From: Dehalococcoidales bacterium
GTDB lineage: Bacteria; Chloroflexota; Dehalococcoidia; Dehalococcoidales; RBG-16-60-22
Reading direction: 5' to 3'
Length of the DNA: 37,934 bases
NCBI GenBank assembly: GCA_016930185.1
Contig: JAFGHK010000098.1
Span: 1 to 37,934, forward strand
In this document: positions 16,568 through 28,817 of the stretch, in pieces
Position numbering within the stretch: the stretch's first letter is position 1
Layout of the letters: each line of letters begins with the position of its first letter
Notes under the pieces: model-generated
What the model was told of the DNA's origin: nothing
Seen by the model: the letters and a program-made list of their open reading frames with translations, nothing else
The model's database searches: none
Made by a program: the position numbers and the translations under genes

Positions 16568-19489
16568 ATGGCAAAAATAAGAATCTCGACCCCCCTGCTT
16601 ATCGGCCTTTTATTAGTTGCTTTCATTGTAATTTCCCTGCTTTTCCGGATTTTTCTCCCCTACGGAGATATCTTCGTCGGCGATGACATTAAATACGCCA
16701 GCAATGACGCTTATTATTACATGCGCCTGGTAGATAATCTTTCCCACCATTTCCCCACCCTCACCCAGTTCGACCCGTATTTTCTTTATCCCGGCGGTAA
16801 TATCGTCACCTCCCTGCCTACCTTTCACTGGATAACGGCAATCCTTGCCTGGATGGGAGGCGCAGGGCACCCGACACAAAATATCATCGATTTAATAGGG
16901 GTTTACCTGCCGGCAATCCTTGGTGCGTTATTGGTTATCCCCGTTTTCTTTATCGCCAGGGCTTTATTTAATAAATGGGTGGGCGTGCTGGCGGCCGGCC
17001 TGATAGCTGTCCTGCCGGGCGAATTATTGTCACGCTCGATGCTGGGCGCCGGGGATAATCCCGTTGCTGAAGTCTTTTTTACAACTACGGCCCTGATGTT
17101 TCTGATTCTGGCGGTGAAGGCCGCCGTTCAGAAGCAGTTGTCCTTTTCCCATATATTCAAGGGCGACTGGAAGGTGATGCTCAAACCGTTAATATACAGT
17201 GTGCTGGCCGGCGTATTCCTCGGTTTTTACCTCACTACTTGGCAGGGGGCTTTAATATTCGTCTTTATTCTTGTCCTTTATTACATAATCCAGTTCATTA
17301 TCAACCATTTGAAACGCAAATCATCCGACTACCTCTGCATCGTTGGGTTCTTGACACTATTACTGGCGTTGATTATGCTGCTTATCAATCCAATGTCCTC
17401 CGACGTAACTCTGGCCATGGTCATCGCGCTTTTGGTTCCCCCGGTTTTATGGGGTATCTCAAAACTCATTTCCAGCCGGGGCTTCAAAGAATACTTTTAT
17501 CCTGTTACGCTGGCCGTTATCGGGGGCTTAGCCGTAGTGGTTGTTTACTTTGGGGCACAGGGTATGTTTCACACGCTGCTGGCTAAATTCAACTTTGTAT
17601 TCTTTCCCACGGGTTCAAGTGCCATTACCACCCTTGAAATGACGCCGATGCTTACCCCTCAAGAAAATATCTTTACTACAAATGTAGCCTGGGGTAATTT
17701 TTCCACCCATATCTTTATTGCGCCGTGGTGGCTTATTTTCGGCATCGGGGCAGCAGCCATATGCGCTTATCTCCTGTACTTAAACTCCCGCAACGGCAAC
17801 GGGGTATCATTACTGGTGTTCTTTATTATAACCGCGGTGATAATGATAATATTGACCGCAACGCAGATGCCCAACGAGTATAATCTCCTCGATGACCAGG
17901 TCAAATTCATTCCGGGTGTGGCGATTATTTCGATGGGGGTACTGTTTTATACGCTTATCAGGCGGGGGCAAGAACAGCGGTGGTATATATCCGCCTTATG
18001 GGTCGTAGCGATGATTGCCACTTTATCACTGCTGGTAGTATTTACCACGTACAGCAATATCCGCTACCTGGCGCTGATACCTCTGGCCATATTAGTCTAT
18101 ATTTTGTTCAAGCAAAGCGAAGGGGATGAGCACCTGCGGCTTTTCCTTGTCTGGTCACTGGTAATCCTGATAATCCCGATGATACAGCGACGTTTCCAGT
18201 ACTATCTGGCGGTGAACTTTGCGGTGCTTTCTGCTTATCTATCATGGCAGATAATCTGGCTGGCAGGCATTAAAAAGCTGGTAAAACAGCCGGAGGAACC
18301 GGGTATTAAAGGAGCCGCGCGTCTGGAGGCCCCAAAGGAACAGGACTATTACACAATCCTGGGGGTAGGCAAAAACGCGGACTTTACTACTATAAAAAAG
18401 GCCTACCGTAGATTAATGCAGGATTACCAATCCGGCCAGGAGCAAAAAGATGCCGAATCAAAGAAGCGGATGAAGGAGATAAATAAAGCCTATGAAACCT
18501 TGACCAACCCGAGACTGCGCGCCTCTTATGACAGCTCCCGACGTAAGGGTTACGAAAAGAAAAGCGCAAAAAGTAAGAGGAAAGGCCAGACTCCGAAATT
18601 ATATTATGTCAATACTATTTTAGCTATAATTGTCGTTTTCCTTTTTGTTTTTTGTCCCAGTATATCTCAAGCACAGGCCCAGTCCCAGGTAGTGAGTTAT
18701 GCTTTATCGGATAACTGGCAGGCGGCCATGCTCTGGATGAAAGATAATACGCCCGCACCTATGGGAGACCCGGAGGCATACTATAAATACTATGACGCGC
18801 TGCCTCCCGGCGAGGAGTTCGAGTACCCCGAATCGGCGTATGCCGTAACGGCATGGTGGGACTACGGGTACTGGATTATCCGCGTCGCGCAGCGCATACC
18901 CAATGTCAATCCGTCCCAGTCGCCGGGACCCATCAGGAAGGTGGCGTCATTCTTCCTGTCGCAGGATAAAGATGCGGCAGATGCGCTAAGACAGGAACTT
19001 AATTCGAGGTATATAGTCGCTGATTATGAAATAACAACCGGAAAGTACTGGGCGATGCTCAATTGGGCGGGACTCGACCAGGAAAAATATATCCCGACGT
19101 TCTATATAGAGCAAGAAGGCATGGTCTATCCCAGACAGGTGTTCAGCATCGATTATTACAGCACCTTAATCGTCAGGCTTTTCAATTTCAACGGGCAGGG
19201 CGCCCCGGGAGGCAAAGCAGTGGTGATAACCTATCAGGAGGCACTGGATGTCAACGGCATAATTTTTAAACTCGTTGTCGATGCCCAGGAATTCGTCTCC
19301 TATCAGGATGCGCTTAATTTCGTGAACACACAGGAATCCAACTATAAATACGAGATTGTGGGCGTGGACCCCTTCACCTCCCCGATACCTCTGGAACCGG
19401 TCGAGGGATACCAGCTGGTGTACAACTCACCGACTTCTAACGATGCCATACCGGAAATCAAGATATTTGAATACATCGGGGATGATTAA
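16568..19489 (+). CDS. STT3/AglB-type oligosaccharyltransferase with an internal J-like domain
   Basis: SNDAYYYMRLVDNL, GAGDNPVAEVFF, many TM segments, WWDYGYWI catalytic signature; internal EQDYYTILGVGKNADFTTIKKAYRRLM...KEINKAYETLTNPRLRASYDSSRR. Confidence 0.92.
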   Translation: MAKIRISTPLLIGLLLVAFIVISLLFRIFLPYGDIFVGDDIKYASNDAYYYMRLVDNLSHHFPTLTQFDPYFLYPGGNIVTSLPTFHWITAILAWMGGAGHPTQNIIDLIGVYLPAILGALLVIPVFFIARALFNKWVGVLAAGLIAVLPGELLSRSMLGAGDNPVAEVFFTTTALMFLILAVKAAVQKQLSFSHIFKGDWKVMLKPLIYSVLAGVFLGFYLTTWQGALIFVFILVLYYIIQFIINHLKRKSSDYLCIVGFLTLLLALIMLLINPMSSDVTLAMVIALLVPPVLWGISKLISSRGFKEYFYPVTLAVIGGLAVVVVYFGAQGMFHTLLAKFNFVFFPTGSSAITTLEMTPMLTPQENIFTTNVAWGNFSTHIFIAPWWLIFGIGAAAICAYLLYLNSRNGNGVSLLVFFIITAVIMIILTATQMPNEYNLLDDQVKFIPGVAIISMGVLFYTLIRRGQEQRWYISALWVVAMIATLSLLVVFTTYSNIRYLALIPLAILVYILFKQSEGDEHLRLFLVWSLVILIIPMIQRRFQYYLAVNFAVLSAYLSWQIIWLAGIKKLVKQPEEPGIKGAARLEAPKEQDYYTILGVGKNADFTTIKKAYRRLMQDYQSGQEQKDAESKKRMKEINKAYETLTNPRLRASYDSSRRKGYEKKSAKSKRKGQTPKLYYVNTILAIIVVFLFVFCPSISQAQAQSQVVSYALSDNWQAAMLWMKDNTPAPMGDPEAYYKYYDALPPGEEFEYPESAYAVTAWWDYGYWIIRVAQRIPNVNPSQSPGPIRKVASFFLSQDKDAADALRQELNSRYIVADYEITTGKYWAMLNWAGLDQEKYIPTFYIEQEGMVYPRQVFSIDYYSTLIVRLFNFNGQGAPGGKAVVITYQEALDVNGIIFKLVVDAQEFVSYQDALNFVNTQESNYKYEIVGVDPFTSPIPLEPVEGYQLVYNSPTSNDAIPEIKIFEYIGDD
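18344..18546 (+). other. DnaJ-like J domain within the STT3 protein, HPD replaced by QSG
   Basis: DYYTILGVGKNADFTTIKKAYRRLMQDYQSGQEQKDAESKKRMKEINKAYETLTNPRLRASYDSS; QSG codons at 18428-18436. Confidence 0.85.
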
Positions 19490-19515: not shown

Positions 19516-19543
19516 CGTAGAAATCAAGAACTTTTACGTTTTT
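19516..19543 (+). terminator. Possible rho-independent terminator after STT3
   Basis: CGTAGAA (19516-19522) / TTTTACG (19532-19538) stem with one G-U, followed by TTTTT. Confidence 0.4.
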
Positions 19544-20747
19544 CCTTTATGGCTTCAATTAACTTCTGTTCCAGTTGGCGGACGATTCTTTCATTGCTGT
19601 GATTTTCCCGCGCGTAGGCCAGCCCGGCCCGCTCCAGCTTTTTTCTGTCTTCCGGCGCTTTGAGCAGGGCGATTATCTTGCCCGGTATCTTGTCAGCGCT
19701 GTCCCCGTACGCCACACCCTGTTCTTCGCCCTGAATTACGGCCTCCATGCCGGGAAGGCGCGTGGCCACTACCGCCCTGCCGCAGGCAAGATACTGCACT
19801 ATCTTGCTGGGGAAAATATCCCGCGTGGTATCGTTGACAAGGAAAGTGTTGATGCATAACATCGACATGTTGATGTATTGAGGCATGGTGTCATAAGGCT
19901 GGAAGCCGGTGATGACAACGCTCTTCTGCATTCCCGTTTCAGCGATGATTTTTTCCAGCGCGGGTCGCTGCGGCCCGTCGCCGACGATGAGTAATCTAGC
20001 CTGCGGCACTTCATTCAGGACTTCACTAAAATGCCGGATAAGTATATCAAGTCCGCTGAAATCGAACAACGTACCCATAAAGAGTATCACGGCATCCTCT
20101 GCATTAAGTCCCCACCTGCGGCGGAGTTCTTCCGAAACGGGGGCCGGTTTAAACATGTCCGTATCCACGGGGATTAAAAGCAGCCCCACCCGGTCAGGGT
20201 CGGCGCCCAAATCCACAACGTATTTAGACATCTTGGGAGTGAGGGCGAGAATATAGTCCACCCTGGAATAGACCCTCTTCTCAAGCAGCCTGGTCAGGGG
20301 GCGCAGGAGAGGACTGGTCACCATTTGATTCAGCACGTCTATAGAGCGGAAGACCACCGGCATATTGTACTTTTTTGCCAGATTCACGGCCTGCCAGCCG
20401 CTGGTGGGCACGGAATAAAGCACAATGGCGTCGATTTTCTTTTCCTTGATGGTCCGTTGGATTTCCCGGTGCTGGGTGAATAAAGCGGAGAAACGGCTGA
20501 CGCCGGGGATTTTAATAAAACCGGGACGCCTTAGCTCCACCTTGGCGCCGGGGTAAGCGCGCTCTACGTTATCGATTACTCGCGTGCGGAGGCTGCCGAA
20601 GTCAAAAAACCCGTCCTTCTGCCACATGGACTCGTAGTCGATGACATAGACATTGTGCCCGAAAATGGACAGAAGCTCGGAAAGGGTATGGATTTCAAAA
20701 ACGACCTTTTTAAGCCAGTCGATTTCGTGAATAAAGAGTATATTCAC
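19524..20747 (-). CDS. Glycosyltransferase family 4 (GTG start)
   Basis: LFMGTLFDFSGLDILIRHFSEVLNEVPQARLLIVGDGPQRPALEKII, VITGFQPYDTMPQYINMSM, FPSKIVQYLACGRAVVAT. Confidence 0.9.
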   Translation of the reverse strand: MNILFIHEIDWLKKVVFEIHTLSELLSIFGHNVYVIDYESMWQKDGFFDFGSLRTRVIDNVERAYPGAKVELRRPGFIKIPGVSRFSALFTQHREIQRTIKEKKIDAIVLYSVPTSGWQAVNLAKKYNMPVVFRSIDVLNQMVTSPLLRPLTRLLEKRVYSRVDYILALTPKMSKYVVDLGADPDRVGLLLIPVDTDMFKPAPVSEELRRRWGLNAEDAVILFMGTLFDFSGLDILIRHFSEVLNEVPQARLLIVGDGPQRPALEKIIAETGMQKSVVITGFQPYDTMPQYINMSMLCINTFLVNDTTRDIFPSKIVQYLACGRAVVATRLPGMEAVIQGEEQGVAYGDSADKIPGKIIALLKAPEDRKKLERAGLAYARENHSNERIVRQLEQKLIEAIKEKRKSS

Positions 20748-20755
20748 AGCAGATG

Positions 20756-21976
20756 CTATTCGCTTTCCGATGCTTCGTGATAGAACCTCAATATGAGCGG
20801 ATGGCGCATCGCTTTTTTGATTTCGCCCTCTTGTTTCGCCAGCTCGTCCCGGACAGCCTTATGCTCCACGAGCACCACCAGGGCGTCGGCGTCTTTAGCG
20901 ATTTCCTTGATGGAAGAATACTGGGAGCCTTTTACTCTGGGATCGTAGGCGCTTACCCGGTAGCCGTCCGCCTTGAGCAGCCCGACTATTTTCTGCGCCG
21001 GACTGTTCCTGGTGTCGTAGGTATCGGGCTTGTAGGTCAGCCCCAGGACGACGATTTTAGGATTATCGATATCCTTTAAAGCCTGCCTGATTTTGGCGGC
21101 TATGTTGACCGGTACCTCGTCGTTGATAAGCCTGGCCGTATGAATGAGGCGCGAGTTGACGGGGTCCACCTCCTTGATAAACCACGGGTCGACGGGTATA
21201 CAGTGCCCGCCGGTGCCGATGCCGGGCTTGAGGATTTTCACCCGGGGGTGCTTGTTGGCCAGCCTGATAGCTTCCAGAATATCAATCCCCAGCCCCTCTG
21301 CCACCGCGGCGAACTCGTTGGCGAGGGCGATATTAACATCGCGGTAGGTGTTTTCCATCAGTTTCACGGTCTCCGCGGTAACGTCGTCGGTCAGGTACAG
21401 GTTCCCCTTGACAAACGAAGCATATATCTCGCGGGACATCTCGGCCGCTTTCCTGTCCATGCCGCCGATTATCCTGTCGTTATTGACGATTTCCTCGAAT
21501 ACCGCGCCGGGCAGAATCCTCTCCGGGCAGTGGCAGAGAAAGACGTCTTTGCCGATTTTCAGCCCCGACTTCTCAATAATGGGGGCGATGATATCGCGGC
21601 AGGTAAGGGGAGGCACCGTGCTTTCCACGATTACCAGGTTGCCGGAGCGCAGGTAAGGGACAATCGACTCCACGGCCTGTGTCACTTGAGAGAGGTCGGC
21701 GACCCTTTTCCTTTCGTCGATGGGTGTGGGAACGGAAATGATGAAAACATCCGCCTCGCAGGGTGTCTTCTGGGCGCGCAGGTTCTTCCTGACATTCGGC
21801 TCCTGGTAAATTTTACTGATATCCTCCTCGGCCAGGTGCAGGAAGCCGGTATTGATGGCATCGACCACGTTTTCCTCGATATCGGCGCCGATGACCTCGT
21901 AGCCGGCCCGCGCCAGCATGATAGCCAGCGGCAACCCCACGTATCCCGTTCCGATGACGACGATTTTCTTAGCCAA
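20756..21976 (-). CDS. wecC: UDP-N-acetyl-D-mannosaminuronate dehydrogenase-like nucleotide-sugar dehydrogenase (TTG start)
   Basis: KKIVVIGTGYVGLPLAIMLARAGYEV, VESTVPPLTCRDII, LMENTYRDVNIALANEFA, GTGGHCIPVDPWF, LGLTYKPDTYDTRNSP. Confidence 0.85.
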   Translation of the reverse strand: MAKKIVVIGTGYVGLPLAIMLARAGYEVIGADIEENVVDAINTGFLHLAEEDISKIYQEPNVRKNLRAQKTPCEADVFIISVPTPIDERKRVADLSQVTQAVESIVPYLRSGNLVIVESTVPPLTCRDIIAPIIEKSGLKIGKDVFLCHCPERILPGAVFEEIVNNDRIIGGMDRKAAEMSREIYASFVKGNLYLTDDVTAETVKLMENTYRDVNIALANEFAAVAEGLGIDILEAIRLANKHPRVKILKPGIGTGGHCIPVDPWFIKEVDPVNSRLIHTARLINDEVPVNIAAKIRQALKDIDNPKIVVLGLTYKPDTYDTRNSPAQKIVGLLKADGYRVSAYDPRVKGSQYSSIKEIAKDADALVVLVEHKAVRDELAKQEGEIKKAMRHPLILRFYHEASESE

Positions 21977-22886
21977 CTTTGTATACCTCTTTCTGCCATT
22001 CGATTGTCCTGGGGATGCCTTCCTCCAGGGACACCGTGCTTTTATGCTTGAGGTCGCGTACGGCTTTGGAGACGTCCACCTTTTTCACCAGCGTCGTTTC
22101 CGGCTGGGCGTCTTTATACTCCACCAGGCTGTCGTCTTTGCCCAGGTATTTCAGGATGATATCGGAGGCTGTTTTCATGTTGTGCGGCTCGTGCCCGGCA
22201 ATATTATACACCTCGCTGGCTTTGAAGTTATCGACGATGTTAGCCAGCGTCTTTGCCGAGTCGTCTATATACGACGACGTCCGCTCGTGCTTGGTATAGA
22301 CGGTGTACGGCTGGTTATGCAGGGCTTTGTAGATAAAGACACAGATGGCGCTGCGGTACTCGGAGTAGTATTCGCCGGGACCGTAAGTGTTGAACAGCCT
22401 TACGCGCACCGTCTCCGTGCCGAACCGGCCGGCGGAGTTTAAAATCTGCATCTCGTTGACCCACTTGGACATGGCGTAGTCGTTCATCTGCTTCACGGCC
22501 ACCTTGTCCATCACGTCCTCTAACATAACGTCGCGGTAATCGCCGTAGACCTCGGAGCTGCTAAAGAAAATCATGCGGAACTTGAGCCTTTCCTGCATCC
22601 GGATGAAATTCTTGGTGCCGATGGCGTTGGACTTCCAGAGGTTCTCGTAAAAGTCCTCGCCGTTGCGGCGCCCGAACTCAGCGGCAAGGTGATAAACATA
22701 GTCGAACCCGGCGCCGTCCAGCAACCTTTCCACCTGGTGAAACTCGCCGACGTCGCATCTTACGTAGTTCGCCTCGGCCGAGTGCACCCGGTCGGCTATC
22801 CAGACCTCATTGCCCCTCTTCTTAAGCTCGGCGGAGAGCGGTTTGCCCACCGCCCCCAGGCCGCCGGTTACCAGAATTTTAGCCAT
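21969..22886 (-). CDS. NAD-dependent epimerase/dehydratase (extended SDR)
   Basis: ILVTGGLGAVGKPLSAEL, YHLAAEFGRR, YAMSKWVNE, RLFNTYGPGEY. Confidence 0.9.
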   Translation of the reverse strand: MAKILVTGGLGAVGKPLSAELKKRGNEVWIADRVHSAEANYVRCDVGEFHQVERLLDGAGFDYVYHLAAEFGRRNGEDFYENLWKSNAIGTKNFIRMQERLKFRMIFFSSSEVYGDYRDVMLEDVMDKVAVKQMNDYAMSKWVNEMQILNSAGRFGTETVRVRLFNTYGPGEYYSEYRSAICVFIYKALHNQPYTVYTKHERTSSYIDDSAKTLANIVDNFKASEVYNIAGHEPHNMKTASDIILKYLGKDDSLVEYKDAQPETTLVKKVDVSKAVRDLKHKSTVSLEEGIPRTIEWQKEVYKVG

Positions 22887-23961
22887 TGCCTGCCTCCGTG
22901 ATTATTTTAACGATTCTCGCCGCGGCTTTGCCGTCCCCGAAAGGATTGTCCCACTTGTCTTTCTTGTCCAGCATGACTTCCACACATTCCAGGATGCTTG
23001 CCGCATCAGCCCCGGCGAGCATATTGGCGCCCACCTCCAGCGTTTCCGGTCGCTCCGTGTTGTCTCTAAGAGTAACGCAGGGCACGCCCAGTATGCAAGC
23101 CTCCTCCTGCACCCCTCCGGAGTCGGTGAGTATAAGTCTGGCGCCGCTTTCCAGCTGTAAAAACGATAGGAAATCAGCCGGTTCGATAAGAGTAAGATTT
23201 TCGGGTTTGAGCTTAAACTCATCCATCATCTTACGACTCCGCGGGTGGATTGGGTAAACGACGGGTAATTTATTCCTTACAGCCAGCATGTCCAGACCTA
23301 GTAGAATCGAGCCGAACCTGGCGGCGTTATCCACGTTCTCCTGCCGGTGCAGGGTCACCAGAAAATACTGCTTGGGTTTTAGCTTCAAGTCACTCAATAC
23401 GTCTTTACCGCTTTTCGCCAGCTCCAGGTTCTGCCGGACGGCATCGACGATGGTGTTGCCGGTGACAAAGACCTTTTTCTCATCAATCCCCTCACCAAGC
23501 AATATATCTTTTGCCTTGGGCGTGGGCGCAAAGAGGTAGTCCGCAAGGTGGTCGGTTAAAAGCCGGTTAAGCTCCTCCGGCATGGTGCGGTCGTAGGAGC
23601 GCAGCCCCGACTCCACATGTCCGACTCTAATACCGAGTTTCACGGCAGCTAAAGCGCCGGCCAGGACGCTGTTGGTATCACCCTCAACGAGGATGACATC
23701 AGGTTTCTCTTTCAGTAGTATTTTCTCGATACCGATTAGCATTTTACCGGTCTGCTCGGCGTGAGAGCTTGAGCCGACGTCGATATTGTACCTGGGGAGG
23801 GGCAGCTTAAGCTGCTCGAAGAAGACCTTATCCATCTGGTAGGAATAATGCTGGCCGGTGTGCAGTAAAAAGAAATCCGCCCGGTTTTCCTGATAAATCT
23901 TTATCAGCGGGGCCATCTTGATTATTTCCGGGCGGGTTCCGAGTATAATCGCAATTTTCAT
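22879..23961 (-). CDS. wecB: UDP-N-acetylglucosamine 2-epimerase (non-hydrolysing)
   Basis: ILGTRPEIIKMAPLI, LLHTGQHYSYQMD, VEGDTNSVLAGALAAVKLGIRVGHVESGLRSYD, PEELNRLLTDHLADYLFAPT, LTDSGGVQEEACILGVPCVTLRDNTERPET. Confidence 0.95.
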   Translation of the reverse strand: MKIAIILGTRPEIIKMAPLIKIYQENRADFFLLHTGQHYSYQMDKVFFEQLKLPLPRYNIDVGSSSHAEQTGKMLIGIEKILLKEKPDVILVEGDTNSVLAGALAAVKLGIRVGHVESGLRSYDRTMPEELNRLLTDHLADYLFAPTPKAKDILLGEGIDEKKVFVTGNTIVDAVRQNLELAKSGKDVLSDLKLKPKQYFLVTLHRQENVDNAARFGSILLGLDMLAVRNKLPVVYPIHPRSRKMMDEFKLKPENLTLIEPADFLSFLQLESGARLILTDSGGVQEEACILGVPCVTLRDNTERPETLEVGANMLAGADAASILECVEVMLDKKDKWDNPFGDGKAAARIVKIITEAGNG

Positions 23962-24087
23962 TATTTAAGTCAGAGGGGAGCATTACCGGTGCAATAATTA
24001 AACCCTCTTGACAAGTAATTATAATTCGGCACGTAGTGACAAAGCAAGAGCTAAAGCTACCGTATAAATTCCCTCAACAGACAAACA

Positions 24088-26409
24088 TCACCTCCTGCCG
24101 AAGCGTCTTCTTAACGGACCGAGGCGCTTGATAAGGGCGTTATAGACGAGGCGGCGCGCCTTGAGGATTTCCGCTTCTTCCGCCATGGCCGGTCTGTCGC
24201 CCCTCCCCCCGTAGCGACTCTCCAGGTAAGACTGTGTAATATAGTTCAGGGCTTCGGCCTGCCCCGGAAATACCTTCGCCAGACTGCCGGCAAATTCTAG
24301 AGGGGTCTGCTGAGGTTCGGGGACCAGCCCCACCATCGCCGCCAGCCTGCACATATTTACATAGCTGTCGGAAAGCAGTTTCTTCCTGTCCACGCGCCAC
24401 AGCCAGCGGAAGGAAAGCGACCTTACCAGCAGAACGATGCCTATCAATAATGCTATTACCAGGGCCGCGCCGAAAACAAAAAGCAGCGCCTGTCCCAGCT
24501 TGGCGCCGAAAGATAAGGAGTCGGCCCCGCCGGCCGTTACGTCGTCCGTCAGGCTGCCCATATTGAGATTGGCTATGCTCTGGGCATCCGGAGGCGCCGC
24601 CCAGGGCCAGTATGTGCTCCAGTTCTGCGACTGCTCGATGGTGTGGCTGGATACCAGCGGCGTATCGATAGATACCTGACTTTCCGCATTGCCGGGCGTG
24701 GCCTCGATATCCACCCATCCATAGCCGGGGAAATACACCTGCGGCCAGGCATGGTAATACCTGTCGCGTAATATATACTGTCCGGCGACATCACCCGGTT
24801 CTCCCGGGAGATAGCCGATGACAAGTCGCGACGGGACATCGATAGAGCGGAGCATCACCGCCACCGCCGAGGCAAAATGCAGGCAGAAGCCGTCCTGCCG
24901 GTCAAAAAGGAAGTAGGCAACGCTGTCGGCGTCTTCCGGGGGAGCTTCGATCTCCAGCTTGTAAGGAAAGTCGGCAAGGTACTCCACAATGGCCGTTATC
25001 TTTTCATAGGGCGTCGCCGCATTACGGGTAATGTTTTCGCTCAAAAGCCTGATTTCAGGGGGTAAATCGGCAGGCAGCTGGAGATAAACGGCTTTAACGG
25101 CCTCCGAGTAGTTATCTCCGGCGGCGGACAGTTCATCGCTGGCGGCGGTCACGACCCGCGCGGTAACCGTATAACCCTCGCCGGGATTGAGTATGCGCGC
25201 CGCGTTCACGGTCTCGATATCTCCCCCCTCCCCGGTACTCACCCTGGTCGGTATGTCCGCCGAGATAAAGCCGCCGTTGTTCAGCAGTACTTCCGTAAAT
25301 ATCTCGGTGGTAACGGCGTATTGCATGGTTACACCGTCTTCGGATTCTCCCCAGGGCGTATTAGCTTCCAGTAAAATTCTCTCCGCGTCGCTGCTGGTCC
25401 AGCCCTCGGTGGTATAGGTGCTGTACACACTCACCCGCCAGTAGGAGGGTCGCTCGGAGTAAACCACATACTCAATCTCGTCCCCCTGGTTCCATATCTC
25501 CCCGAAGTCGATATCCTTCAGCGAGCCGACCGTGCTTACCGACTGCTTGGATGGCACGACGTTGAAAATATTGTACTTGGACTCCAGGAAGTCCCTCTGC
25601 CAGGGCAGCTTGGTGGCGATATAGTCCTGCAGGCCGGTAGCCCGTACCTGCGGCGTGACCCAGGAAAACGAGGCCGCCACCCCAATTATACAGAGCAGGG
25701 AAATACCCAGATAAAGCAGGCTCCTGCCGGAATAATTGACCGGTCTCTCCTCTTTCAGGCTCCGGCCGGTCATGCGCGTGACCGCCACCAGCAGCGCGGC
25801 GGCAAAAAAGTAGAGGAAGAAGTAAATATAATATGAATCCGGCAGATTGCTAAGATTAAACAGGATAACCAGCCCGCCCATGATGGACGCCCACCAGGCG
25901 TTGTTCCGCCGCAGTACAAACCATATCGAGAGGCTGCCGATTATCCAGGCGAGTAGCGCGATAAATACCACGAAAACTACCTTCTCATCGCCGGTCAGCG
26001 CCGCCGCCGAACCCCGCAACCACGACGAGATAACATCCAGGAAATGAGTAAGCTTGGATGCCGTTTCCGGCGTCGCCAGAACGTTCATGACCTGCCACGC
26101 CGCCACGACCAGGCCGACGACTGCTACGATTAAAAACTTAAACAGTCCGAACATGCGGACTCTCGCCAGCACCACCCCTACGACTATAGAAATCAACAGG
26201 ATTAGCGTTAACGACGGCTGGGGGTCGACCCAGTGCGCCTGCTCTACGGACAGCACGGCCATTTCCAGGGTGAGAAAAACCAGGGCTACCTTCAGCCAGC
26301 TCTGCCAGCCTCCCCACTCCACTCCGCTCTCCCGCGACTTAATATCGCGGTTGCCGGACTGTTTTTTCCAGAAGAAAAACCGCTTCTTTTGCCTCGCGTC
26401 CTTGTTCAC
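24088..26409 (-). CDS. Transglutaminase-like membrane protein (TgpA/DUF3488-like, GTG start)
   Basis: N-terminal TM segments; DGFCLHFASAVAVMLRSIDVPSRLVIGYLPGEPGD...YYHAWPQVYFPGYGWVDIEATPG (Cys-His-Asp); C-terminal TM and DUF4129-like tail. Confidence 0.92.
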   Translation of the reverse strand: MNKDARQKKRFFFWKKQSGNRDIKSRESGVEWGGWQSWLKVALVFLTLEMAVLSVEQAHWVDPQPSLTLILLISIVVGVVLARVRMFGLFKFLIVAVVGLVVAAWQVMNVLATPETASKLTHFLDVISSWLRGSAAALTGDEKVVFVVFIALLAWIIGSLSIWFVLRRNNAWWASIMGGLVILFNLSNLPDSYYIYFFLYFFAAALLVAVTRMTGRSLKEERPVNYSGRSLLYLGISLLCIIGVAASFSWVTPQVRATGLQDYIATKLPWQRDFLESKYNIFNVVPSKQSVSTVGSLKDIDFGEIWNQGDEIEYVVYSERPSYWRVSVYSTYTTEGWTSSDAERILLEANTPWGESEDGVTMQYAVTTEIFTEVLLNNGGFISADIPTRVSTGEGGDIETVNAARILNPGEGYTVTARVVTAASDELSAAGDNYSEAVKAVYLQLPADLPPEIRLLSENITRNAATPYEKITAIVEYLADFPYKLEIEAPPEDADSVAYFLFDRQDGFCLHFASAVAVMLRSIDVPSRLVIGYLPGEPGDVAGQYILRDRYYHAWPQVYFPGYGWVDIEATPGNAESQVSIDTPLVSSHTIEQSQNWSTYWPWAAPPDAQSIANLNMGSLTDDVTAGGADSLSFGAKLGQALLFVFGAALVIALLIGIVLLVRSLSFRWLWRVDRKKLLSDSYVNMCRLAAMVGLVPEPQQTPLEFAGSLAKVFPGQAEALNYITQSYLESRYGGRGDRPAMAEEAEILKARRLVYNALIKRLGPLRRRFGRR

Positions 26410-26411
26410 GG

Positions 26412-27644
26412 CTAATACCCCATCCCCGTATATGGCAGTGGCGAAAGAATAAATCGACTGTCCAGGGCCCTGCCCAGCTCCGCGCCCCGCCTGACGGTAT
26501 AAACATACATGCCGCTTGCGACCAGGCCGCGCGAGGTTTCAGCCGCGCTTACATCTCCCCCGAAGGTAGCGGCGTCCAGCAGGACGGCGGTGACCACGGT
26601 ACTGCGGCCGGCGAGTCGCCGCAGGGCGGCCTGTATATTGCCGGAAGGGGTGATAATAACGACTGCGGAACCCGGCTCGAAACGCTCCTCCTGTGAGGCC
26701 AGTAAAGCATCGAGCGTCAGTCTGCTGTTGGCCTTGATTACCGCCAGCGCCTGCATCAGTTCTTCCAGGTGCTCGTCGCCGGTGTCCGGCAGGAAAAGAA
26801 AAGACTTATCGCCGGAAGCCATCAGCCCCACGTTCTTTTCGCTGTCGATGTATTTTTTAATCAGGGACGCAGCGATTGTCACGGCGTATTCTTCGGTCGT
26901 TTCTTCCCCCTCGCCGAAATGCGCCGTTTCGTGCATGTCCAGCACAATCCAGATATCTTTATATGAATAATTAACCGTATCGGGGTCGAATTCCTTGACC
27001 ATCAGGTTGCCCGTGTGCGCCGTGGTACGCCAGTGGATGTTGCGCAGGCTGTCGCCGCTGATATACTGCCGTACGCGTGCGGCGTTGATGCCTGACTCGC
27101 TGGTGAACCAGCGCCGCTTGCTCGCCCCCGGCTCCTGCCGCGGCAGCGCCTGGAAAAAAGGCAGGTCGATACTCTTGGGATAGACGATGATGCTCCTCTT
27201 GTTCATGATGCGCTCTTTTACCGAAAAGAACCCGAGGGGGTCGGTAACTTTGACGATGAAATTGCCCATGTCGTACGAGCCGCGCCGGCGTCCTATGCCC
27301 TCGCCGCGCCAGCTGTAAGACCCCTGCGCCGGCAGGTGGAAGGTAGCCGTGCCCTGGTAGTCCGGTAAATCCGTGTCCTCCCGCGCCTCTATTAAGGCGG
27401 TAGGCAGCCTGCCCCGGTTGTAAAAGGTGTATTCCTGCTCGAAACGTTCCCCCACCCGGCAGGACCGCGATAGCTTGGTCACTTTGCCGTCGATGCGGCG
27501 GACATTCATGCGCATCCATATATAGCTCATGAAAAGCAGCGCTACCAGGAAAATAAAAAAGCGCCACAGCATAATCGACCCGGTGGCTAAGGCCAAGGCT
27601 AACGTGAAAATCAGGATAACGGTGACAGGCCAGCGAATTCTCAT
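26412..27644 (-). CDS. DUF58 domain protein
   Basis: YISGDSLRNIHWRTTAHTGNLMVKEFDPD (DUF58 signature), DIWIVLDMHE; two N-terminal TM segments. Confidence 0.92.
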   Translation of the reverse strand: MRIRWPVTVILIFTLALALATGSIMLWRFFIFLVALLFMSYIWMRMNVRRIDGKVTKLSRSCRVGERFEQEYTFYNRGRLPTALIEAREDTDLPDYQGTATFHLPAQGSYSWRGEGIGRRRGSYDMGNFIVKVTDPLGFFSVKERIMNKRSIIVYPKSIDLPFFQALPRQEPGASKRRWFTSESGINAARVRQYISGDSLRNIHWRTTAHTGNLMVKEFDPDTVNYSYKDIWIVLDMHETAHFGEGEETTEEYAVTIAASLIKKYIDSEKNVGLMASGDKSFLFLPDTGDEHLEELMQALAVIKANSRLTLDALLASQEERFEPGSAVVIITPSGNIQAALRRLAGRSTVVTAVLLDAATFGGDVSAAETSRGLVASGMYVYTVRRGAELGRALDSRFILSPLPYTGMGY

Positions 27645-27690
27645 TTTTCAAAAGCCGTGAAAAGGACTATTCCCTATTGTTACCCCCGGT

Positions 27691-28698
27691 TTATCGTTCG
27701 GGGATTGCGCCGGGCACGGGCGTGCTCTTCAGTATTTCGGCTATAAAGGTACGGCTGTCCTTGCCCTGTGACTGCCCTGCGGAGGACACCAGCGAGCGGT
27801 GCGCCAGGGCGGGCTCGGCCAGGGCTTTAATATCATCCGGCAAAACGTAATCGCGTCCCAGCAGTAGGGCCCATGCCTGCGCCGTGCGGAAAAGGGCCAG
27901 CGAGCCGCGCGGCGACGCGCCGAGGTATATCGACGGGTGGCGGCGGGTCGCCTCCACCAGCGTCACGATGTACTGCTTGACAAGGTCGTCCACATAGACC
28001 TTTTTGACCGTCTCCTGGAGCATTACAACATCTGCTACTTCGACTACGGGGCTGATTTGCTCGATGGGGTGGATAATCTGCTGTTTTTCTATAATGGCTA
28101 TCTCTTCCTCTGCGGATGGATAGCCGATGTTAATCCGCAGTAAAAACCTGTCCAGCTGGGCTTCGGGGAGGGGAAAAGTGCCCTCGTACTCGATTGGGTT
28201 CTGCGTGGCCAGGACATGGAAGGGTAAGGGCATCTTGTGCGTGACGCCTTCCACGGTAAGCTGTCTTTCCTCCATTGCCTCCAGCAGGGCCGACTGCACT
28301 CGCGGTGTGGCGCGGTTTATCTCGTCCGCCAGCACCACCTGCGCGTCGATAGGGCCGGGGTGAAACTCGAAATCGCCGGTTTTTTGATTATAAACGGTAA
28401 CGCCGATGATATCGCCGGGCAGCATATCCGGCGTGAACTGGATACGCTTGAAACTGCAGTGAATCGACTTCGCCAGGCTACGGGCCAGCATGGTCTTGCC
28501 CAGACCGGGGGCGTCCTCGATAAGCAGGTGCCCCTGGCTTATTAAAGCTATGACCGCCAGACGTACCGCCTCCGGCTTGCCGACCATTACTTTTTCTACG
28601 TTCTGGACGATTTTTTCGGCTAGCTTTTTGGCTTTATCTATATCAACGTCCGGTTTGGCTCTTTCCGTTTCCGTTCCCATGTCTAATTTCTTCGCCAT
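27691..28698 (-). CDS. MoxR-family AAA ATPase
   Basis: [21 protein letters not shown] (Walker A), [27 protein letters not shown] (Walker B), [30 protein letters not shown] before ATG 28698. Confidence 0.95.
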
Positions 28699-28817
28699 AA
28701 TCTCCTGATTCGAGTATATCATAAGAAAAAATGGTACACAAAAGAACTCTTCTTTAACAAATAGTCACACATAGGGCCCAACGGTGCCGCTCCGCCTTAA
28801 AAATGCCCCTTTTTTCC

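Follow-up and report, generated by a model that had tools for sequence, protein, structure and literature searches.

The HPD motif of J domains is needed for the stimulation of Hsp70, and in STT3 oligosaccharyltransferases the linker that precedes the last transmembrane (TM) helix is cytosolic. In some J proteins of secretion, such as Sec63 and DjlA, the J domain is anchored to a membrane protein or a membrane machine; both of these retain HPD and recruit Hsp70. The placement of the DnaJ J domain on DnaK depends on residues R22, K26, R27, K48 and K51 (PMC8215388). Other J domains, known as type IV or pseudo J, carry a non-conservative replacement of HPD, and examples of these are Pam16/Tim16, kinetoplastid Pam18 and DNAJB13. 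HPD-less J domains such as Pam16 (PMC13254874) and TbPam18 (PMC11349236) work without activating Hsp70, Pam16 and kinetoplastid Pam18 being essential members of membrane complexes with no direct Hsp70 activation (PMC13254874, PMC11349236). The oligosaccharyltransferases Stt3, AglB and PglB have 13 TM helices, with EL1, EL2, EL5 and the C-terminal domain exposed externally (PMC8342417, PMC7226087), and the catalytic motifs of AglB are a first DXD (D47), a second DXD (D161/H163 in AfAglB), TIXE (E360) and WWDYG (PMC8342417). Here we describe a bacterial STT3/AglB that carries an HPD-less J domain inside its own chain, encoded in a 37,934-nucleotide stretch of DNA from a Dehalococcoidales bacterium (contig JAFGHK010000098.1, hereafter the window).

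The host oligosaccharyltransferase

The gene occupies positions 16568-19489 of the plus strand, as do all its features given below, and encodes 973 aa; a first-pass annotation of the window had reported a continuous frame of this length with a J-domain peptide in an STT3/AglB host, and the peptide does lie within it. By every profile and fold test the product is an archaeal-type STT3/AglB with an altered metal motif, passing TIGR04154 (512 bits, cut-off 450), PF02516 (93 bits, cut-off 24.5) and PF22627 (73 bits, cut-off 27), and its AlphaFold2 model (mean pLDDT 77.7, pTM 0.75) has A. fulgidus AglB as its best Foldseek match (7e9s, E 4.8e-27, TMt 0.66). It is the single STT3 of the window genome. 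The PF02516 N-terminal match covers 16700-17818 (aa 45-417) and retains D47, D163, R156 and E357, while the PF22627 core domain with WWDYG lies at 18713-19036 (aa 716-823). The window protein has the fold of A. fulgidus AglB (7e9s/3waj; TIGR04154) along with D47, D163, E357 (in TTLE) and WWDYG, but differs from it by the J-like insert in its final cytosolic linker, an extra multi-TM stretch, and a second DXD motif changed from DHH to DNP in the window genus.

This second DXD reads D-N-P instead of D-H-H at 17054-17062 (aa 163-165), and across the genus it appears as GDNP, TDNP or SDNP, the metal-binding His of AglB being replaced by Pro; D47, R156 and E357 are retained despite the change. The genus also exceeds canonical AglB in its number of TM helices, since about 110 aa, mostly TM, are added before the J linker (17756-18067, about aa 397-500), and this genus-specific stretch occurs irrespective of the J domain. 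It lies between EL5 and the QRRF helix in L006-L009, is partial in L028, and has no counterpart in L015 and most relatives. A tie between the J domain and either this stretch or the DNP motif was rejected, as the J-less L009 has both and the J-bearing L015 neither. In the sequon-binding motif, WVDYG or WVDHG stands in place of WWDYG in a related clade (L014, L018, L022, L023, L024), and L026 has WTDYG.

Transfer of a lipid-linked glycan to N-X-S/T is the predicted activity of this protein, and glycan genes are adjacent to it: a group-1 glycosyltransferase, a UDP-glucose/GDP-mannose dehydrogenase, an epimerase and a UDP-GlcNAc 2-epimerase, at 19524-23961 on the minus strand. Their order is common to the congeners L184 (J-bearing, in part) and L185 (J-less). 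Over 19524-28722 the glycan block stands beside a MoxR, DUF58 and transglutaminase (TgpA-like) set, which is kept with STT3 in L185.

The J-like domain and its place in the membrane protein

The domain matches PF00226 over aa 593-655 (18344-18532), with 58 bits and E 1e-15 by hmmscan against a cut-off of 27.8 bits, and with 63.6 bits and E 3.3e-17 in the genome search; a phmmer search of the PDB with it finds E. coli DnaJ at E 4e-15. The location first assigned, 18344-18546, was right, but that interval holds 203 bases, which is not a multiple of three, and the peptide quoted with it ends at 18538. In the AlphaFold2 model the fold comprises helices 594-598, 606-622, 629-646 and 648-671, with linkers of pLDDT <50 on either side; folded alone with three sequences the prediction is weaker (pLDDT 68.6), and Foldseek with the isolated domain returns J domains as its top matches. 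The embedded domain is therefore a genuine J domain by profile and predicted fold, with its helix II/III hairpin in place, and the lack of such a fold, which had been named in advance as grounds for abandoning the idea, was not what the model gave.

The domain follows the QRRF motif and its TM helix (18185-18271, aa 540-568) and a disordered, fast-evolving linker A (18272-18343, aa 569-592), and is followed by a basic linker B (18533-18601, aa 656-678) and, in the AlphaFold2 model, by the last TM helix (18602-18682, about aa 679-705). Profiles and model thus agree with the first description, in which the domain lay between the multi-TM region and the last TM helix plus the WWDYG domain. Seven helices separate EL5 from the J linker in the model, an odd number after which the linker remains cytosolic, and the composition of linker B (10 K/R against one D/E) agrees with the positive-inside rule. 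We infer from this modelled topology that the J domain is on the cytosolic side, in the last linker before the final TM helix.

The alignment places QSG at the position of HPD (18428-18436, aa 621-623), as had been noted from the sequence. With DnaJ and CbpA (PF00226; 5nro, 3ucs) the window domain has in common the four-helix fold, the core and most of the DnaK-facing basic residues, but it is without HPD and is embedded in an enzyme, with a TM helix on either side. Sec63 and DjlA are weakly matched as well; they resemble the window domain in the membrane attachment of their J domains, but they keep the HPD and the recruitment of Hsp70, in contrast to the window domain, which has lost the motif and has STT3 as its host. 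Of the features that define J-protein classes A-C, it has the J fold and PF00226 match and lacks the HPD motif, whereas a recognisable J domain with a non-conservative replacement of HPD, the sequence definition of type IV (PMC13254874), describes it. It resembles Pam16/Tim16, kinetoplastid Pam18 and DNAJB13 in this replacement, and Pam16 and TbPam18 also in belonging to membrane complexes (PMC13254874, PMC11349236), but the type IV examples are mitochondrial or axonemal and none lies within an oligosaccharyltransferase polypeptide. From the loss of HPD, the domain is expected not to stimulate the ATPase of Hsp70. The window genome encodes DnaK and four further J-domain genes.

Distribution and origin of the insert

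Profile searches covered 31 genomes of the family and 156 of the order, 39 of the latter having an AglB match. The J insert is present in four of these 39, always at the same position and in an open frame: the window genome, G003 (= L083, JAFGOC010000100.1, labelled 'Dehalococcoidales bacterium'), G002 (= L084, CAIWTG010000235.1, labelled 'uncultured Chloroflexi') and G015. The first three are species of one genus, and G015 belongs to another. The company of these carriers makes the window organism most likely one of the Dehalococcoidia (Chloroflexota). No such insert was found in samples of 394 genomes of the class and 399 of the phylum, or among the matches listed from 397 archaeal genomes of one phylum and from 395 genomes of the phylum to which a Phycisphaerae MAG belongs, the latter with only one AglB seen; in a GTDB scan, only L083 and L084 carry it out of 80 AglB loci among the matches listed. 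MAGs bearing the labels Phycisphaerae/planctomycete, Acidobacteria, Bryobacterales and Vicinamibacterales also contain AglB relatives (L092, L099, L104, L108-L110, L112, L114, L116). The J domain was rejected as a common feature of STT3, being rare in the order and lacking in the wider samples, and this distribution, with near-absence outside the genus, makes it an apparently recent, lineage-restricted trait.

A rare architecture on metagenome-assembled contigs could in principle reflect an assembly chimera, a frameshift or a chance resemblance, and absence of the insert from nearly all relatives had been put forward at first as a sign against it. Such absence is indeed the case outside the genus, but artefact is excluded: three congeners and a member of another genus carry the insert at one site, in open frames of four separate genomes and with E values of 1e-15 to 1e-17, which rules out a chimera or frameshift and leaves this whole class of explanation with a negligible probability.

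Within the genus, the STT3 gene of the congener G004 is intact but has no J domain, and its surroundings follow the gene order of the window (MoxR, DUF58, a transglutaminase protein, two epimerases, a UDP-sugar dehydrogenase, a glycosyltransferase, STT3 and an ABC transporter), so presence and absence of the J domain concern one orthologous gene. The linker is also variable in length, the distance from QRRF to DP being 97-143 aa in ordinary relatives, 181-196 in J carriers, and 166-173 where an extra TM pair is present (144 in L026). An extra hydrophobic TM pair occupies the site of the J-bearing linker in L014, L022, L023, L024, L026, L043 and L170. On these comparisons, the linker before the last TM helix is an insertion hot spot of Chloroflexota AglB. 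The main rival to a functional reading starts from here, namely that the J domain is a passive, well-folding spacer in an insertion-tolerant linker, kept folded merely to avoid harm and with no partner. The hypervariable linker, the seven relatives with TM pairs in its place and the congener without a J domain all suit this explanation, which we nevertheless hold to be rather improbable on account of the selection figures presented in the next section.

The J-like domain probably derives from a DnaJ-type J domain that was inserted into this linker. In an STT3 tree built with the insert columns removed, the trait needs at least two changes, one for the genus group and one for L015. In the J-domain tree the three congeners group together (support 89/93) and a single clade of all four carriers is not rejected (p-AU 0.453), a weak test because of the long branches. 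One gain followed by losses, or two gains at one spot, are possible histories on these trees. For the losses of HPD within the genus, position 35 is equally parsimonious with an HPD or an HPG ancestor. No compositional sign of recent transfer was found, GC3 being 0.57 in the J domain and 0.58 in the gene.

Loss of HPD, selection and a putative docking role

HPD is lost in all four carriers, which answers whether the loss is conserved, a point raised with the first annotation: the position reads QSG (window), RSD or HPG (L008) in the genus, and the motif is absent in the other-genus carrier L015. It is retained in 14 of 14 other J domains examined from carrier and sister genomes. Selection was estimated by the Nei-Gojobori method between the window and its closest relative L007 (81% identical), both without HPD, and since only two sequences are compared and dS is near or above 1, the omega values are rough. 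They come to 0.12 in the STT3 body and 0.35 in the linkers; the J domain as a whole has 0.11, which splits into 0.04 for the J helices and 0.45 for the HPD loop. Nonsynonymous change is enriched in the loop (Fisher p about 0.001-0.002), with the loop taken as aa 621-634, limits of our own choosing that extend over the first turn of the modelled helix III. In active DnaJ J domains of the same genome pair, by comparison, helix omega is 0.04 and 0.07 and that of the HPD loop at most 0.05. Non-core positions of the J helices, the core set being our choice from general knowledge, have a pN of 0.079, that of the linkers being 0.281 (p 0.0016), and are as conserved as the STT3 body. Constraint on the helices therefore persists without HPD, which is consistent with a domain that acts without stimulating Hsp70. 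On these figures the J helices are under strong purifying selection, which maintains the fold and its surface but not the loop that triggers Hsp70.

These figures bear on several explanations at once. A passive spacer needs only its core, yet non-core helix positions match the STT3 body in conservation and far surpass the linkers. The domain could also be a relic in decay: formerly active and recruiting DnaK to the oligosaccharyltransferase, it would by now be functionless and eroding, HPD first; the HPG of L008, one residue off HPD, and the shorter, more diverged domain of L015 fit such a course, but a helix omega of 0.04 between two sequences that both lack HPD, and a frame open in all four carriers, make it unlikely.

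An active but unusual J domain, still stimulating DnaK without HPD, has in its favour the basic DnaK-facing residues kept in the genus and a designed J analogue that was active without HPD (PMC13254874). The DnaK-contact positions are K, R, R, K and N in the window domain, and in both congeners the first four are basic and the fifth is N, so that the carriers of the genus retain four of the five basic residues that contact DnaK; such an electrostatic face could still touch DnaK or a similar protein. However, no system tested retains stimulation once HPD carries an exchange of H for Q or of D for N (PMC8215388), and the entire HPD loop is nearly unconstrained between the window and L007, which renders this explanation very unlikely. 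In L015 the same positions are R, L, S, E and K, a basic docking face mostly lost, and one shared partner for all carriers is thus doubtful.

From the observed insertion, the predicted fold, the conservation of the domain with loss of HPD and the computed selection, we infer, as the somewhat more probable reading, an HPD-independent docking or tether module of type IV 'pseudo' J on the sole STT3/AglB. A former DnaJ-type J domain would have entered the cytosolic linker between the last two TM helices and become a docking module carried on two flexible linkers, most likely holding a cytosolic partner beside STT3 during glycan transfer outside the membrane. The partner could be DnaK or a member of the DnaJ family, in which case binding would leave ATP hydrolysis untriggered, or else part of the secretion or nascent-chain machinery. 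The precedents of Pam16 and TbPam18 make an HPD-independent role plausible by analogy, and the J-like adaptor proposed at first gains from the selection pattern of constrained helices and relaxed HPD loop. Counting against docking are the other inserts (TM pairs) at the linker, the one J-less congener and the loss of the basic face in L015.

In the open full-text literature no description of an STT3-J fusion was found, in line with the first-pass annotation, which knew of none. A 2026 review calls it enigmatic whether the HPD deviations of J proteins are evolutionary accidents or selected (PMC13254874). A J domain in a fixed context, in which HPD is lost and selection on the helices persists, bears on this question, and the orthologous, syntenic J-less gene of a congener together with helix selection without HPD makes it directly testable. 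Moreover, STT3 would here possess a cytosolic interaction domain of its own, a feature seen in none of the other relatives compared, and this bears on a possible coupling of single-subunit oligosaccharyltransferases to protein delivery. More tentatively, and as a possibility we would not yet bet on, the J domain would link N-glycosylation on the outside to protein delivery in the cytosol or to the Hsp70/J network, with Hsp70 not activated; if true, it would be a prokaryotic, one-chain analogue of the coupling between the multi-subunit eukaryotic oligosaccharyltransferase and the translocon.
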